This document shows positions 54,053 to 59,653 of a DNA stretch of 63,610 bases, piece after piece. Both the position numbers and the translations under genes were made by a program. Source of the DNA: an uncultured Ectothiorhodospiraceae bacterium (GTDB lineage Bacteria; Pseudomonadota; Gammaproteobacteria; UBA6429; Thiohalophilaceae); NCBI GenBank assembly GCA_947260005.1, contig CAMYOL010000047.1, positions 1-63,610 of the forward strand, read 5' to 3'. The notes under the pieces are model-generated. The model was not told the DNA's origin and made no database searches. It saw only the letters and a list, made by a program, of their open reading frames with translations. The stretch's first letter is position 1. Every line of letters begins with the position of its first letter.

Positions 54053-54826
54053 ATGAAGTTGTTAAAAGTAGTCATATTAGGTGTTGTTTTCGCGCTCCCT
54101 ATGGCGGTCAGCGCCGATAGTAAAAAAGACGAAATTGAGCTGGTGAAAGCTCGTGTTATGAAAGAGCTGAAAAAAGAGCCCAGTTCCATCACCGAGTCTC
54201 CCATTCCAGGGCTTTATCAGGTCACCGTCGGCTCACAGATTTTTTATTTTTACAAAGATGGACGCCATGTTATTTCCGGTGACATGTTTGATATGGAAAA
54301 AGGCCTTAATCTGACTCAAACCGCTCGCAGTAAGGCCCAAATGGCGGCACTAAGAACCCGTAATCCGGACAATATCGCAGAGCTAAAGAAAATGGGCGAA
54401 AAGAATATGATTGTCTTCGCGCCTAAAGGGGAAGTGAAACACACCATCTCAGTGTTTACCGATATCGATTGCGGTTACTGCCGAAAATTACATAAAGAAA
54501 TGGCCGCTTATAATAAACTCGGTATCAAGGTTCGTTACTTAGCTTATCCTCGTGCCGGTGTTGGCTCAGGTTCTTACGATAAAATAGTTTCAGTCTGGTG
54601 TGCGGACGATCAAAGAGCGGCAATGAGTCTTGCCAAAGGTGGTGGTGCGGTTAAGAGTAAAACTTGTGACAATCCGGTTCAAGCTCAGATGGCGTTAGGT
54701 GAGAAAATGGGTGTGAATGGGACTCCCGCATTGGTATTAGACAATGGTCAACTCTACCCAGGTTACGCGCCGGCCGATAAATTGATTGCCTTACTGGATA
54801 GTATCAAGCTGGCTGCAAAAAATTAA
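54053..54826 (+). CDS. dsbC: Thiol:disulfide interchange protein DsbC
   Basis: 257 residues. Signal peptide about 1-22 (ending VSA). An N-terminal dimerisation domain is followed by a thioredoxin-fold domain with DIDCGYCRKLHKEM (CGYC) and the cis-proline loop GVNGTPALVLDNGQLYPGY. It is the periplasmic disulfide isomerase kept reduced by DsbD. TATAAT at 54010-54015 is a likely -10. The xerD-dsbC order is common in gammaproteobacteria. Confidence 0.96.
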   Translation: MKLLKVVILGVVFALPMAVSADSKKDEIELVKARVMKELKKEPSSITESPIPGLYQVTVGSQIFYFYKDGRHVISGDMFDMEKGLNLTQTARSKAQMAALRTRNPDNIAELKKMGEKNMIVFAPKGEVKHTISVFTDIDCGYCRKLHKEMAAYNKLGIKVRYLAYPRAGVGSGSYDKIVSVWCADDQRAAMSLAKGGGAVKSKTCDNPVQAQMALGEKMGVNGTPALVLDNGQLYPGYAPADKLIALLDSIKLAAKN

Positions 54827-54844: not shown

Positions 54845-55696
54845 TTAATTTAACAGGCTTGCCATTTTTTGTCGGTAGCGTGAGACGAGTTCTCCGCTAC
54901 CGCCAAGCATTTCAAATACTTTTATCATTCCCTTGCGACCGGCATCATCATTAAAGCTTCGATCGCGGCGCATAATTTCTAAGAATTGTTCCAGTGCTTG
55001 TTCGAAATTAGATTGAGTGATGTATAATGAGCTCAACTGATAACGAAGTTCATTGTTATCTTCATCATCCTGTAATTGTTTTAATAACGTATCGATGTCG
55101 CCACTGCTTTCGCTCGCCGTGCTTAAAAACTCTAGTTGACCAAGTAAGGCGACAACTTCCGGGCTGGTACGTACCTCAGCGGGCAGGCTTTCTAATATTG
55201 CTTTAGCATCCGAATATTGTTTTTCATTCATTAATACATTGACGTATAAAATACGGTTCTGGCTGTTATCGGGATCGCTGTTCACAATGGATATCATATC
55301 CTGGATACAATCTCGGTCGCCTTGTTTGTATTTTTCTATTGCGGCTTGCATTAACTGGTCTGATTCACGACTAATGTGTTTATCGAGTAAGGCGCGGATT
55401 TCAGTCTCAGACTGTACGCCAAGGAATTCATCGACCACCTCGCCATTTTTAATCAGTTTAACCGTCGGCACACTGCGTACCGAATACTCCTGCGCCAGGG
55501 CTTGCTGTTCATCAATGTTCACCTTGGCGAGCTTGAAACCACCCTGATAACTTTCCGCAAGGGATTCAAGTACCGGCATTAATGACTTGCAGGGGCCACA
55601 CCAAGGTGCCCAAAAGTCGACCATAACAAGTTGTTGGCTAGATGCGTGGATAACATCTCGCACAAAGGTGTCGGCGCTTACATCAAATGAAAACAT
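54845..55696 (-). CDS. CnoX/YbbN-like thioredoxin-TPR co-chaperone
   Basis: 283 residues. The N-terminal thioredoxin domain has FWAPWCGPCKSLMPVL and VRSVPTVKLIKNGE. The C-terminal part (about 115-283) is helical and TPR-like (AIEKYKQGDRDCIQDMIS, NNELRYQLSSLYITQSNFEQAL). E. coli CnoX, a holdase linked to GroEL and DnaK, has SQHC in place of WCGPC. The intact CGPC here suggests that redox activity is kept. Convergent with dsbC. Confidence 0.9.
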   Translation of the reverse strand: MFSFDVSADTFVRDVIHASSQQLVMVDFWAPWCGPCKSLMPVLESLAESYQGGFKLAKVNIDEQQALAQEYSVRSVPTVKLIKNGEVVDEFLGVQSETEIRALLDKHISRESDQLMQAAIEKYKQGDRDCIQDMISIVNSDPDNSQNRILYVNVLMNEKQYSDAKAILESLPAEVRTSPEVVALLGQLEFLSTASESSGDIDTLLKQLQDDEDNNELRYQLSSLYITQSNFEQALEQFLEIMRRDRSFNDDAGRKGMIKVFEMLGGSGELVSRYRQKMASLLN

Positions 55697-55758: not shown

Positions 55759-58700
55759 TTAATCGATTTCAAGATACGTTGGCAGACTGGTAAGTATCAA
55801 ACGAGTACGGACCGCCAATGCCGGATAGAGTTGTTGTACGCCTTCGCGGTACAGGTCCATTTGGGATCGATATTGCGCTGCCAGGCTCTTGAGTTGTTGT
55901 CGGACTGGCTCTGAGCTCAAATCAGCACCGGTTGGAATATCAAATTGATGGGTCTTATAGTCAATGATGATCGCCTCATGCTGGGTGATAACAAGGCGAT
56001 CAATAATACCATGAACTTGTTTATCCTGGCGTTTAAAATAGATTGGGATCTCACTAAAGGCCTGTTGATATTTTTCCTCATTAAAATATTCGGGAAAATG
56101 TTGAATCGTTTGCTCGGCTTGTCGCCAGTGATCCTGTTGGTCTAAATCAGTATTGTCGTTCCGGCCATTAGGCGAATGAGCATGAAGGTAGTCATCAAAC
56201 GTAAGACCAGGACGATTCGCCAGGCACAACAACATGTCATGAATCTGGTTACCGCGCTCAATGGCCTCTGTTTTCGACATTGTCGTGAGTGATGAGTCAC
56301 GGCCTAATTGAGCGAGCGGCTCATATTCATTGATATCAGTATGACTGGGCGCTATTTCTATAAAGTCACTTTCTAGTTTAACCGGTTGTTGTAGTCGTAT
56401 ATCAATTTCTTTTGACGTGGTGGCTATACTCTCAGTCGTTGTGGGTGAGGTCGTGTCGCCAGAACACTGTGTGATCTCTCTGCTGATCTGCGGTGCTTTA
56501 AGAAGTTCATTGGCATCGATATCAAATTGCTTACATATCTGTTGATACCAACCGGCGGGTTTTTTGTTACCCGAAATATAAAGATGCTGTTTAGCACGTG
56601 TGACGGCGACATAGAGTAAATTGATGTCTTCCTGAGCGTCTTTCGCCTGTTGTTGCTCGATGGCCTGTTGGCATAAGGGCGTCGGGTAGCGACTGGAGGG
56701 CGAGAGCAACATTAAACTCGGCTGTGGGGCCTCGCTGGGCCAGTCGACGATGACATTTTCTCCGCCGCTATTATGTTTGGTCGTGGTGCTATCCACCAAA
56801 AAAACAATCGGAGCTTCTAATCCTTTCGATTCATGGATGGTTAAAATCCTGACTCGATTCTGTTCTGCATCGTTGGCTGGTTGATCGGGGGCTTCCTTGT
56901 CTTGTTGCTTGAGCAGTTTTAACCAGGCAAGAAAACGAGTCAGGCTGGGGTAGCGTCCGCTGTCGTTTTCCAATGCTAATTCAATAAAGCGAGTGAGATT
57001 GGATAAGGCGCGAGCCTGTAAATGTTTTGGATAGTTCGCCTGATAACGTGCCAGCACGTTGGCTTCACTATAGATACGATCTAATAAGTCATGTACGGGC
57101 AAGGTATCGGTTAACATTATCCAGCGACTTAATAATGTCACTGCGCGATGCAGGGGATGATCGCTTGAGTAGTCATCAAGGTGATCGGTCATATATTCAA
57201 ACCAATGCGTTTGTCCTGCTAATGGATACAGGTCTTCATTGCTGGCTGAAAACAACGGTGAACGTAATACACCTGCCAGGGCATGATTATCGAATGGGGT
57301 GATTAACCATTGCAGTAGATTCACCATGTCTTTAATTTCAAGGCTATCGAGCAGCGTGCCGCGTTCGGTGCCCAGGTAGGGAATGTGCGCCTCGCGCAGG
57401 GCGCGTTCATAATCGATGGCGTGAGTACGATTACGTAATAAGATTAAAATGTCGGCGTGAGTCAGGTAGTGACTTTGTTCTCCAGAAGCGATGATGGTTT
57501 TATTCTTGATCAAATCTTTAATAGTGTTTGCCACCGCTTGTGCTTCGTAATAATGAAAGGTCAAGACATCAGGTCGGGGTGTGTGTAATGGGTTGCGCAA
57601 CTCGGCAGCGGTTGCTTGATCGAGTTTCGGTTCTGATTTTGATTCGGGTTCTGATTCCAATTCAGGGGGTGTGATGATCGGTAATATCGTCACCGAACCG
57701 GCTAATGTCTTCTTATGAGTTAAGTGCGCCTGAAAGTCAGGTAAGAGTGCATCCGGGTTATCGATGAAAAACTGATTTACAAAATCGATGATCGCCGGTG
57801 ACGAGCGATAAGATTGATTCAAATACTGTTTCTGTGCATTGAGATTATTCTCCAGCCAGTCACTGGCTGTGCCGAACAGTTTAGGCTCGGCACGTCGGAA
57901 CCGATAGATCGATTGCTTGGCATCACCGACAAACAATACACTGCGAAACCGTTCCTGTTCGCTGGCGGCGATCTCGGATAACAACGGTAACACCAGTTGC
58001 CACTGGGTTGGGTTGGTGTCCTGGAATTCATCGATCAATAAATGTTCGATGCGCTGGTCGAGTTTATATTGTACCCAGTCGGCATGGTCCGAGCTGTTTA
58101 ATAAACAATAACATTGCCACTCAAGATCAGAAAAATCCAGGCTCCGATGAAAACGTTTGATCGCCTGATATTCATCAATATACGCCTGACCTGCACCAAT
58201 CCAGGCGGCGGTTAAGGTGAGTGTTTCACTCGCATGCATGGCCTGACGAAGTTGTATTAATCGATCGCATTGCGTCTGATGGATATTTAGATAGTCGTCA
58301 CAACCTTGTTCGCCCAATTTGGCTGTTATAGTTTTGTTAATGGTGCGTGCACGAGGTTGATCGGTCGTCGTAAAAAAGACACTCCAGATCAGTTTTAACG
58401 CGGGCAGTGCTTCCGATGTTTGTTCGCTCAGTCTCAAAGCCTGTTCAATGGCCTGCACGGCTTGTTGATTCGATTTTATCGGGTGTTTATTTAAAAGTTC
58501 GATAAACTCGGCCAGTTGCTGTCGTGACGTGGCGTCCTGAAAATACGCTTGAATCAAAGACTCCACAGACTGTCCGAGGTCGGTGTTGAGTTGTTGAGCC
58601 AGTTCAGCGAGATAATCGCTTAACTCAAAACCTGGCTGATTGCTTAACGCCCACCACTCACTGCGCGCGGCAATAAACTTCGACAATACAGATTTGGTTT

Positions 58701-59277
58701 TATCGGTGCCAAAATGACGTAACAGGACTTCCATGTGACTCTTTGTGACCTCGATGACGTCATTTGGATATCGTGGGTCATCCGGGCGAGTCAATTTGTT
58801 GGTCAGGCTATTCCAGGCATCGTCGATTAAATAACCAGTTCGTTCAATCAGCTCAAAACCGGGGGGTAGATTGGCCTCCATTGGAAAACGACGCAGCAGA
58901 TCCTGGCAAAAAGCATGAAAGGTGGTGGTACGAACATGCTGCGGGCTGTGCAATAAGTCTTCATACAACGAGCGTGCACTATCACAGTGCGTTGCACTGG
59001 CTTCGAGGCCGAGTTGTTCGGTTAAAGTGTGAACCAGTTCCGGTTTTGAACAAGTTGCCAACATCGATACCCGTTCAAACAGACGTTGTTGCATCTCAGC
59101 GGCCGCTTTGCGGGTAAAGGTAATGGCTAAAATAGAGCCGGGAGTCGCACCATGAATGAGCAAGCGAATAATATGACTGACCAGATGAAAGGTTTTACCG
59201 CTACCCGCCGAGGCATGCACGCTGCTAAAGTCAGGCATGGCAGTCGGTTTGGCTGAAACGTTCGTAGTGGCAGGCAT
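55759..59277 (-). CDS. AddA-like UvrD helicase with C-terminal nuclease domain
   Basis: 1172 residues. Helicase motifs: ASAGSGKTFHLV (Walker A), ITFTRKAAAEMQQRL (Ia), LLIDEFQDTNPTQW (II), FVGDAKQSIYRFRRAEP (III) and LLYVAVTRAKQHLYISG (VI). The C-terminal PD-(D/E)xK nuclease has IDRLVITQHEAIIIDYKTH. This matches AddA of the AddAB end-processing complex, which replaces RecBCD. The usual partner addB is not adjacent: upstream lies a small RNA gene. Start ATG 59277; Met14 at 59238 is an alternative. Confidence 0.9.
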   Translation of the reverse strand: MPATTNVSAKPTAMPDFSSVHASAGSGKTFHLVSHIIRLLIHGATPGSILAITFTRKAAAEMQQRLFERVSMLATCSKPELVHTLTEQLGLEASATHCDSARSLYEDLLHSPQHVRTTTFHAFCQDLLRRFPMEANLPPGFELIERTGYLIDDAWNSLTNKLTRPDDPRYPNDVIEVTKSHMEVLLRHFGTDKTKSVLSKFIAARSEWWALSNQPGFELSDYLAELAQQLNTDLGQSVESLIQAYFQDATSRQQLAEFIELLNKHPIKSNQQAVQAIEQALRLSEQTSEALPALKLIWSVFFTTTDQPRARTINKTITAKLGEQGCDDYLNIHQTQCDRLIQLRQAMHASETLTLTAAWIGAGQAYIDEYQAIKRFHRSLDFSDLEWQCYCLLNSSDHADWVQYKLDQRIEHLLIDEFQDTNPTQWQLVLPLLSEIAASEQERFRSVLFVGDAKQSIYRFRRAEPKLFGTASDWLENNLNAQKQYLNQSYRSSPAIIDFVNQFFIDNPDALLPDFQAHLTHKKTLAGSVTILPIITPPELESEPESKSEPKLDQATAAELRNPLHTPRPDVLTFHYYEAQAVANTIKDLIKNKTIIASGEQSHYLTHADILILLRNRTHAIDYERALREAHIPYLGTERGTLLDSLEIKDMVNLLQWLITPFDNHALAGVLRSPLFSASNEDLYPLAGQTHWFEYMTDHLDDYSSDHPLHRAVTLLSRWIMLTDTLPVHDLLDRIYSEANVLARYQANYPKHLQARALSNLTRFIELALENDSGRYPSLTRFLAWLKLLKQQDKEAPDQPANDAEQNRVRILTIHESKGLEAPIVFLVDSTTTKHNSGGENVIVDWPSEAPQPSLMLLSPSSRYPTPLCQQAIEQQQAKDAQEDINLLYVAVTRAKQHLYISGNKKPAGWYQQICKQFDIDANELLKAPQISREITQCSGDTTSPTTTESIATTSKEIDIRLQQPVKLESDFIEIAPSHTDINEYEPLAQLGRDSSLTTMSKTEAIERGNQIHDMLLCLANRPGLTFDDYLHAHSPNGRNDNTDLDQQDHWRQAEQTIQHFPEYFNEEKYQQAFSEIPIYFKRQDKQVHGIIDRLVITQHEAIIIDYKTHQFDIPTGADLSSEPVRQQLKSLAAQYRSQMDLYREGVQQLYPALAVRTRLILTSLPTYLEID

Positions 59278-59404
59278 AGAGCGTAGCTTAAACAGCCTGA
59301 AGGGCAGGGTAAAGGTTGGAATAGGTCTAAACGAGCGTTTTAAATTGTTTATTAATTGTCAGATATTGAAACATTCTGTAACCCAACTGTAAGTAAAGTC
59401 TTGG

Positions 59405-59410
59405 TATGAT
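59405..59410 (+). promoter_or_regulatory. -10 element of the GGA-rich small RNA
   Basis: TATGAT lies about 7 bases before the expected start near 59417. No good -35 is present at 16-18 bases. TGTAAG (59389-59394), followed 6 bases on by CTTGGT, is a partial match to the GacA/UvrY box TGTAAG-N6-CTTACA. Weak core plus a response-regulator site is what CsrB/RsmZ promoters look like; this is an inference. Confidence 0.5.
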
Positions 59411-59416
59411 GTCTGC

Positions 59417-59653
59417 GTTCGACGAAAGGGTTAACCGTATTTATGTTTGATCTTTTTAGACAAACAACGAGATGTACTCACAAGGATTTGTGACCTAGGC
59501 AGGATTGCCTTTTAAGGAAGAACTAAGGACTTTAAGCAGCGGCAGGACGCCGATATGGAAAACTCAGAAATGAGTATCACTGCGGGATAATGATGGCGGG
59601 CAGGATGGCCTGAAAGGTGTTTCAAATGGCGACCGATAGGTCGCCTTTTTTTT
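59417..59653 (+). ncRNA. CsrB/RsmY/RsmZ-type small RNA (CsrA-sequestering)
   Basis: About 237 bases without a credible open frame, ending in a strong terminator. It contains eight GGA motifs, at 59484, 59502, 59516, 59527, 59545, 59557, 59585 and 59603. Several lie in hairpin loops: CACAA-GGAT-TTGTG (59479-59492), AGGCA-GGAT-TGCCT (59497-59510) and CGGC-AGGAC-GCCG (59540-59552). Repeated loop GGA is the CsrA-binding signature of the CsrB/RsmZ family. The 5' end is estimated from the -10 element. It lies between divergent addA-like and outer-membrane genes. Confidence 0.8.
59628..59653 (+). terminator. Terminator of the GGA-rich small RNA
   Basis: The stem GGCGACC/GGTCGCC with loop GATA is followed by eight T residues. 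It has no protein gene directly upstream on this strand, which is itself a sign of a small RNA. Confidence 0.93.

Follow-up and report, generated by a model that had tools for sequence, protein, structure and literature searches.

A putative CsrA-sequestering small RNA gene beside addA in Gammaproteobacteria, with candidate activators that differ among lineages

Introduction

A GGA-rich intergenic segment divergent from an AddA-type gene in an uncultured member of the Ectothiorhodospiraceae raises the question of whether it encodes a small RNA that sequesters CsrA, and if so, how such a gene would be controlled. The segment lies in the 63,610 nucleotides of contig CAMYOL010000047.1 (assembly GCA_947260005.1) that were analysed here in full and are referred to as the window. 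CsrA-sequestering RNAs commonly, though not universally, have a GacA/UvrY box upstream. Escherichia coli CsrB has more GGA motifs than the RNA described here, PrrB/RsmZ has a handful of GGA hairpins and sits at a different locus, and TwoAYGGAY RNA also carries GGA in hairpin loops. In the excerpt consulted, one study predicts further CsrA-regulating sRNAs, with other organisms and flanking genes given in its Table 2, and proposes activators other than GacA (PMC5568370). Among the matches listed for open-access literature on Csr RNAs, addA/addB, Thiohalomonadales and CRP/GacA boxes, no title concerns this locus. From comparative sequence analysis we conclude, with a probability of about 0.86, that the segment is a stand-alone gene for a CsrA-sequestering small RNA, at an old and conserved site beside addA and with apparently lineage-specific activators.

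Results

Sequence features of the predicted RNA

The forward strand carries eight GGA motifs within 122 nt (59484–59605; starts at 59484, 59502, 59516, 59527, 59545, 59557, 59585 and 59603), as the initial annotation had counted. The predicted fold places four of them (59484, 59502, 59545 and 59603) in hairpin loops, one more than had been claimed, and the reported terminator GGCGACC-GATA-GGTCGCC-T8 is present as described (Table 1). Folding, one of the checks first proposed, thus returned the GGA loops, but the whole-RNA fold is only modestly more stable than those of shuffled sequences (z -1.90, with 7 of 200 shuffles equally good). The region had been read as free of open frames, and there is indeed no ORF of at least 40 aa on the forward strand of 59417–59653; two ORFs of the reverse strand, of 49 and 45 aa, overlap this segment. 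CsrA-sequestering sRNAs have several GGA motifs in loops or single-stranded stretches, found here in the fold and in the alignments described below, together with an intrinsic terminator and no open frame, likewise found here.

By density per 150 nt the locus is the GGA maximum of the window on both strands, with 7 for the runner-up. A chance cluster in intergenic DNA, with no gene at all, is nonetheless worth weighing, as GGA is a common triplet and other stretches of the window also attain 8 when counted per 200 nt. That explanation is contradicted by the conservation, the covariation, the terminator and the strand-specific recurrence reported below, and we consider it scarcely credible.

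Table 1. Coordinates of the predicted RNA, its parts and its neighbours in the window
Feature	Position	Strand	Remarks
DsbC-like gene	54053..54826	+	part of addA neighbourhood
Thioredoxin-TPR gene	54845..55696	-	part of addA neighbourhood
AddA-type helicase-nuclease gene	55759..59277	-	UvrD helicase and PD-(D/E)XK domains; divergent neighbour of the RNA
GacA-box-like letters	59388..59405	+	9/12 matches; judged not functional
Putative extended -10 promoter element TGGTATGAT	59402..59410	+	TATGAT at 59405-59410 preceded by TG
Predicted small RNA, ~237 nt	59417..59653	+	5' end predicted only; conserved core 59474-59653
Hairpin 1, TCACAA-GGAT-TTGTGA	59478..59493	+	fits core ACARGGA of high-affinity CsrA site; fold and alignment
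Hairpin 2, core AGGCA-GGAT-TGCCT	59494..59517	+	fold and structure-fitted alignment
Hairpin 3, CGGC-AGGAC-GCCG, closed by long-range GCAG/CTGC stem	59536..59583	+	
Hairpin 4, CGGGC-AGGATG-GCCTG	59597..59612	+	fold and alignments
Intrinsic terminator with T8	59628..59653	+	conserved in alignments

Conservation and covariation within the order

BLASTN detects the RNA in 6 of the 40 genomes of the order, the window's included. With a covariance model (R1) built from eight copies, of which two had been chosen by their position at addA, the number rises to 35 of 40, and each of these genomes has a single strong copy; eight genomes supplied the model, so that the figure for the remaining genomes is 27 of 32. 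Seven of the 35, not counting the window's genome, also have a second, weak match (E 2.5e-4 to 0.009) and may carry a further copy; the next-best match in the window's genome has an E of 0.14. The order sampled is probably Thiohalomonadales, because the match in one of its genomes (G004) has the same length and score as that of Thiohalophilus thiocyanatoxydans (L035; Thiohalomonadales, Thiohalophilaceae; 222 bases, 44.2 bits), in which the RNA adjoins addA.

When 35 distinct rows, including two weak off-site matches, are aligned by fitting them to the structure, 97.2% of the cells are paired and both-sided changes occur in 21 of 28 pairs, compared with 7.4 for shuffled controls and no more than 8 after sliding. 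An alignment of 30 copies made without reference to structure gives 22 pairs with RNAalifold, ten of them with compensatory change (seven in the terminator, one in hairpin 1 and two in a helix outside the model). In this second alignment the terminator and hairpins 1 and 4 reappear, hairpin 3 does so only in part, and hairpin 2 is missing. The first loop has CACANGGA in 29 of the 30 aligned homologues and ACARGGA in 24, which fits the core of the SELEX consensus for CsrA sites, RUACARGGAUGU, as given in an excerpt of PMC7652899.

No second Csr RNA was accepted among the candidates read in the window's genome. Three of its five weak model matches (E 0.14 or worse) were read and are plain terminators, and of five other GGA-cluster sites that were read, one has no terminator and the remaining four consist of dispersed repeats. 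These repeats (L192, L193, L194 and L195, on G000 contigs C41, C74, C58 and C7) are rich in CAGGATGACA or AGGATGAC, with several copies per site, and imitate GGA clusters in pattern searches.

Relation to known RNA families

At gathering thresholds a tRNA is the sole Rfam result in the whole window. With lax filters, a 351-base stretch containing the RNA gives CsrB as its only convincing match, at 27.5 bits (E 5e-6) against a threshold of 71, and the suggestion that the RNA may be divergent enough for annotation to miss is thus borne out. Relatives likewise fall below the threshold of RF00018 (CsrB/RsmB), at 36.6 bits for L097 (E 9e-7), 25.3 for L011 (E 0.0042) and 16.7 for L109. RF00166 (PrrB/RsmZ; threshold 44 bits) is not listed for the window RNA, either at gathering scores or in the lax scan, where one overlapping hit, weaker and from the same clan, was left out; it reaches 26.1, 25.7 and 23.7 bits in L025, L118 and L116 (E 0.03–0.11). 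Among ten relatives searched to E 1, L011 matches CsrB, L025 matches PrrB_RsmZ and the other eight have no Csr match; among 11 loci from a class-wide search, four (L097, L109, L116 and L118) have Csr-type matches, all below threshold. At gathering scores, 20 loci of the order give no Csr-type RNA at the addA-linked site. Since all matches to these two families are sub-threshold, the RNA should not be filed under RF00018 or RF00166.

The initial proposal of a CsrA-sequestering RNA of CsrB/RsmZ type is well supported by the GGA loops with compensatory change, the conserved terminator, a csrA gene found in 35 of the 40 genomes of the order, a GacA/UvrY-type regulator in the window's genome and the sub-threshold CsrB match, and the window RNA looks as if it works like the CsrB and RsmZ RNAs. 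It shares repeated GGA loops and an intrinsic terminator with CsrB/RsmB, but is shorter (~237 nt compared with 356 model positions), is linked to addA, and belongs to an order in which the GacA box is at chance level. The TwoAYGGAY model (RF01731), of the same clan (CL00106) as CsrB and PrrB/RsmZ, does not match it.

Three further elements were noted. The only TwoAYGGAY match is a separate one (L068:1878-2016, reverse strand, 46.3 bits against a threshold of 43), about 200 bases past the addA-linked RNA of that locus and on the opposite strand, where it is a possible second CsrA-binding RNA. Locus L100 (G162:C11:140810-140959) has 16 GGA in 160 nt followed by a terminator (by eye), no addA in the fetched flanks and no Rfam match at E 1, and is perhaps another kind of Csr RNA. 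The element at L116 (G108:C39:11587-11666), terminated and with 11 GGA in 160 nt, also has no addA in its fetched flanks; its PrrB_RsmZ match is marginal (E 0.11) and it may be a further unannotated Csr RNA.

The T-rich terminator is conserved, as it would be in an sRNA that acts mainly by Hfq-type base pairing and binds CsrA secondarily, and marginal Rfam matches point the same way (isrD, E 0.33, and MicA, E 1.6, in the window; STnc250, E 0.58, in L107). The window's matches of this kind, however, score well short of threshold and have their ends on the terminator stem, and what is conserved is a set of GGA loops on covarying stems, not one single-stranded seed. We therefore regard base pairing as an unlikely main function, and favour CsrA sequestration.

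Location beside addA

Among the 30 fetched loci of the order, 24 have the RNA divergent from addA, with about 101–289 bases between the addA start and the conserved RNA core. Two others (L006 and L067) have too little upstream sequence to be scored, and in the remaining four, which have upstream sequence and no addA, dsbC (L081, L087 and L088) or ybbN (L072) is found there instead. In the window the same two genes sit just past addA, the thioredoxin-TPR gene being the one that we take to be YbbN-like; the AddA itself has addA_alphas as its top NCBIfam match, under cut-off. The RNA had been placed between an AddA-like gene and an outer-membrane gene: the former is the common neighbour, but the latter, an Omp85-type gene downstream, adjoins the RNA in no other locus compared.

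So close a linkage could indicate that the segment is a cis-acting element of addA/addB (a leader, antisense RNA or attenuator) that controls the recombination genes and contains GGA incidentally, all the more as some relatives have the RNA between addB-like and addA genes (by eye). The RNA is, however, on the strand opposite addA and has its own terminator, and its persistence beside dsbC or ybbN at four loci without addA means that it is not part of addA, which can go while the RNA stays. A cis-acting role is accordingly improbable, and the stand-alone gene is the better reading of the position.

Recurrence at addA in other families

A class search was made with a second model, R2, which has a poor consensus structure derived from a sequence-only alignment; addA lies beside 8 of 28 fetched loci from that search. 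At an E of 0.01 the model matched 78 of the 276 genomes searched, but these are apparently mostly chance terminator matches and do not represent a count. Recurrence was instead scored from addA itself. AddA-like matches occur at 82 places in 79 of the 370 genomes of the class sample; 12 places were dropped (fragments, contig edges, E worse than 1e-80, and two good ones left unfetched in G360 and G202), leaving 70 upstream regions from 69 genomes, which were called positive if at least 7 GGA fell in the 200 bases before a recognised terminator.

On the divergent strand 17 of the 70 regions are positive, from 9 of 30 families, the order included. On the addA-sense strand none is positive, the GGA count ahead of a terminator staying below 5 throughout, and no dinucleotide shuffle (5 for each of the 70 regions) reaches 7. 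Three positives come from the order and five were known before the test (L097, L137, L161, L165 and L166); with these set aside, nine fresh positives in six families remain. The score requires a recognised terminator, so Thiohalophilus L122, with 11 GGA in 180 nt, counts as negative and the true proportion is at least 17 of 70. A plain count of at least 7 GGA in 180 nt is less clean, with 27 of 70 regions on the divergent strand compared with 9 of 70 on the other.

R1 misses the addA-linked element of L025, its sole match in that locus lying elsewhere, and the RNAs outside the order give no good alignment with the window RNA. Place and strand suggest that the addA-linked RNAs beyond the order share common descent, without proving it, because their sequences align so poorly.

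Upstream control elements

The initial annotation noted TATGAT lacking a -35 partner, and a promoter scan agrees; the hexamer is preceded by TG, giving an extended -10 form, and TGnTATGAT also stands upstream of the copies at L005 and L007 (by eye). A partial GacA/UvrY box proposed just upstream did not survive comparison: its 9 of 12 matching letters share one base with the -10 and are not preserved in the congener L005, and across 27–28 homologues of the order the GacA consensus is matched at chance level, apart from a good box at L074. The window RNA thus has no recognisable example of the upstream GacA/UvrY box often associated with its class.

Exact GacA boxes are absent from the window's genome. 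The genomes of the order contain ten, in 9 of 40, with the reversed control pattern in five genomes, and nothing resembling a Csr RNA was seen around any of the ten; one neighbourhood with 9 GGA reads as coding (by eye) and two have 5. In a single case (L215; G048:C1:59837-59854) a divergent csrA paralogue has an exact box a short way upstream.

A Crp box, TGTGA-N6-TCACA with at most one mismatch and within 260 bases upstream, is present at 12 of 27 loci of the order, in 7 of 13 genera, compared with 0.23 loci expected, although this pattern was tested after TGTGA/TCACA had been spotted by eye and was one of six tried. Five of the boxes are exact, and half-sites at spacings of 2–5 and 7–11 occur at two loci at most. 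The 27 loci omit L006 and L067 (no upstream sequence), L087 (no reason recorded) and five unfetched copies; the set of 28 adds L035. The distance from the box to the conserved core varies from 23 to 201 bases. In g13, the genus with the most members, the box keeps an almost fixed distance upstream of a -35/-10-like pair (by eye), and at L072 it is probably downstream of the promoter. The three members of the window's genus with upstream sequence have 3–4 mismatches, and the whole window has no Crp box within one mismatch. The Crp box is thus the best-supported candidate control element in the order and was not seen in the window's genus.

At 19 loci of other families there is no Crp box within two mismatches, and the GacA consensus TGTAAG-N6-CTTACA within two mismatches is found at 4, compared with 0.12 expected. 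A variant, TGTARG-N6-CTNANA within one mismatch, is found at 10 of 19, but it was defined after viewing the sequences, so this number is descriptive and 4 of 19 is the fairer test. The 19 loci comprise 15 of the 18 elements with at least 6 GGA (the other three are from the order) plus L015, L017, L025 and L096, and several are closely related to one another.

For comparison, the E. coli UvrY site is described in an excerpt of PMC4682653 as an inverted repeat of 18 bases, a long way upstream of csrB. The excerpt consulted of PMC3523269 reports that Crp affects CsrB/CsrC levels in Yersinia pseudotuberculosis and that purified Crp did not bind specifically to the csrB/csrC regulatory regions; the RNAs of the order differ in the consensus Crp box upstream of them in more than half of the genera.

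CsrA, GacA/UvrY and Crp genes

RNA and csrA do not coincide in every genome of the order: CsrA was found without an RNA copy in G005, G009 and G011, and an RNA copy without CsrA in G013, G043 and G054, most of which are fragmented assemblies. The window's genome, where a csrA gene had been named as a prerequisite, has three CsrA-family genes, but two are divergent paralogues and the canonical one (L210, G000:C36:47200-47700) is truncated in the assembly, with about 83 bases missing at the 5' end, including the usual start and some 19 codons. It follows alaS-like and lysC-like ORFs (by eye) and is intact in three congeners; the missing bases reflect either a genuine deletion or a misassembly.

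The GacS/A genes sought in the same genome were found in part. A GacA/UvrY-type regulator scores 274.6 bits against a cut-off of 280 and lies near a uvrC-like ORF (by eye), with one ORF between them, but no BarA/GacS ortholog exceeds its cut-off, several hybrid kinases being candidates. In the order, 39 of the 40 genomes have a match for a Crp-type regulator, 38 of them over cut-off, with a model that is presumably the one for CRP.

Discussion

We propose that the RNA gene would be read divergently from addA and ended by its intrinsic terminator, and that its repeated GGA loops, the first with the ACARGGA motif, would bind several CsrA dimers; CsrA would thereby be titrated off mRNA leaders, as with CsrB and RsmZ. 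The dsbC-ybbN-addA neighbourhood would be its old chromosomal position in AddA-carrying Gammaproteobacteria. Its activators would differ by lineage, acting through GacA-type boxes in several families and Crp-type boxes in about half of the genera examined in the window's order, with an input other than either in the window's genus.

A more specific history, to which we give even odds, is that a single ancestral Csr sRNA locus at addA kept its sponge function while its activator was swapped, being of GacA type in several families and direct Crp in much of the order, with both boxes lost in the window's genus. A GacA-type regulator is still present in the one genome of the order searched for it. 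If the swap is real, the Csr system of these bacteria would report carbon and energy status directly via Crp.

Csr RNAs are hard to detect by homology, and a fixed position, at addA or at dsbC-ybbN where addA is gone, provides a handle by which they may be located among uncultured Gammaproteobacteria. Because GacA boxes seem to have been exchanged for Crp boxes upstream of comparable RNAs, the rewiring of a global regulator that acts after transcription could be put to a direct test, including in Thiohalophilus thiocyanatoxydans DSM 16326 and laboratory E. coli.
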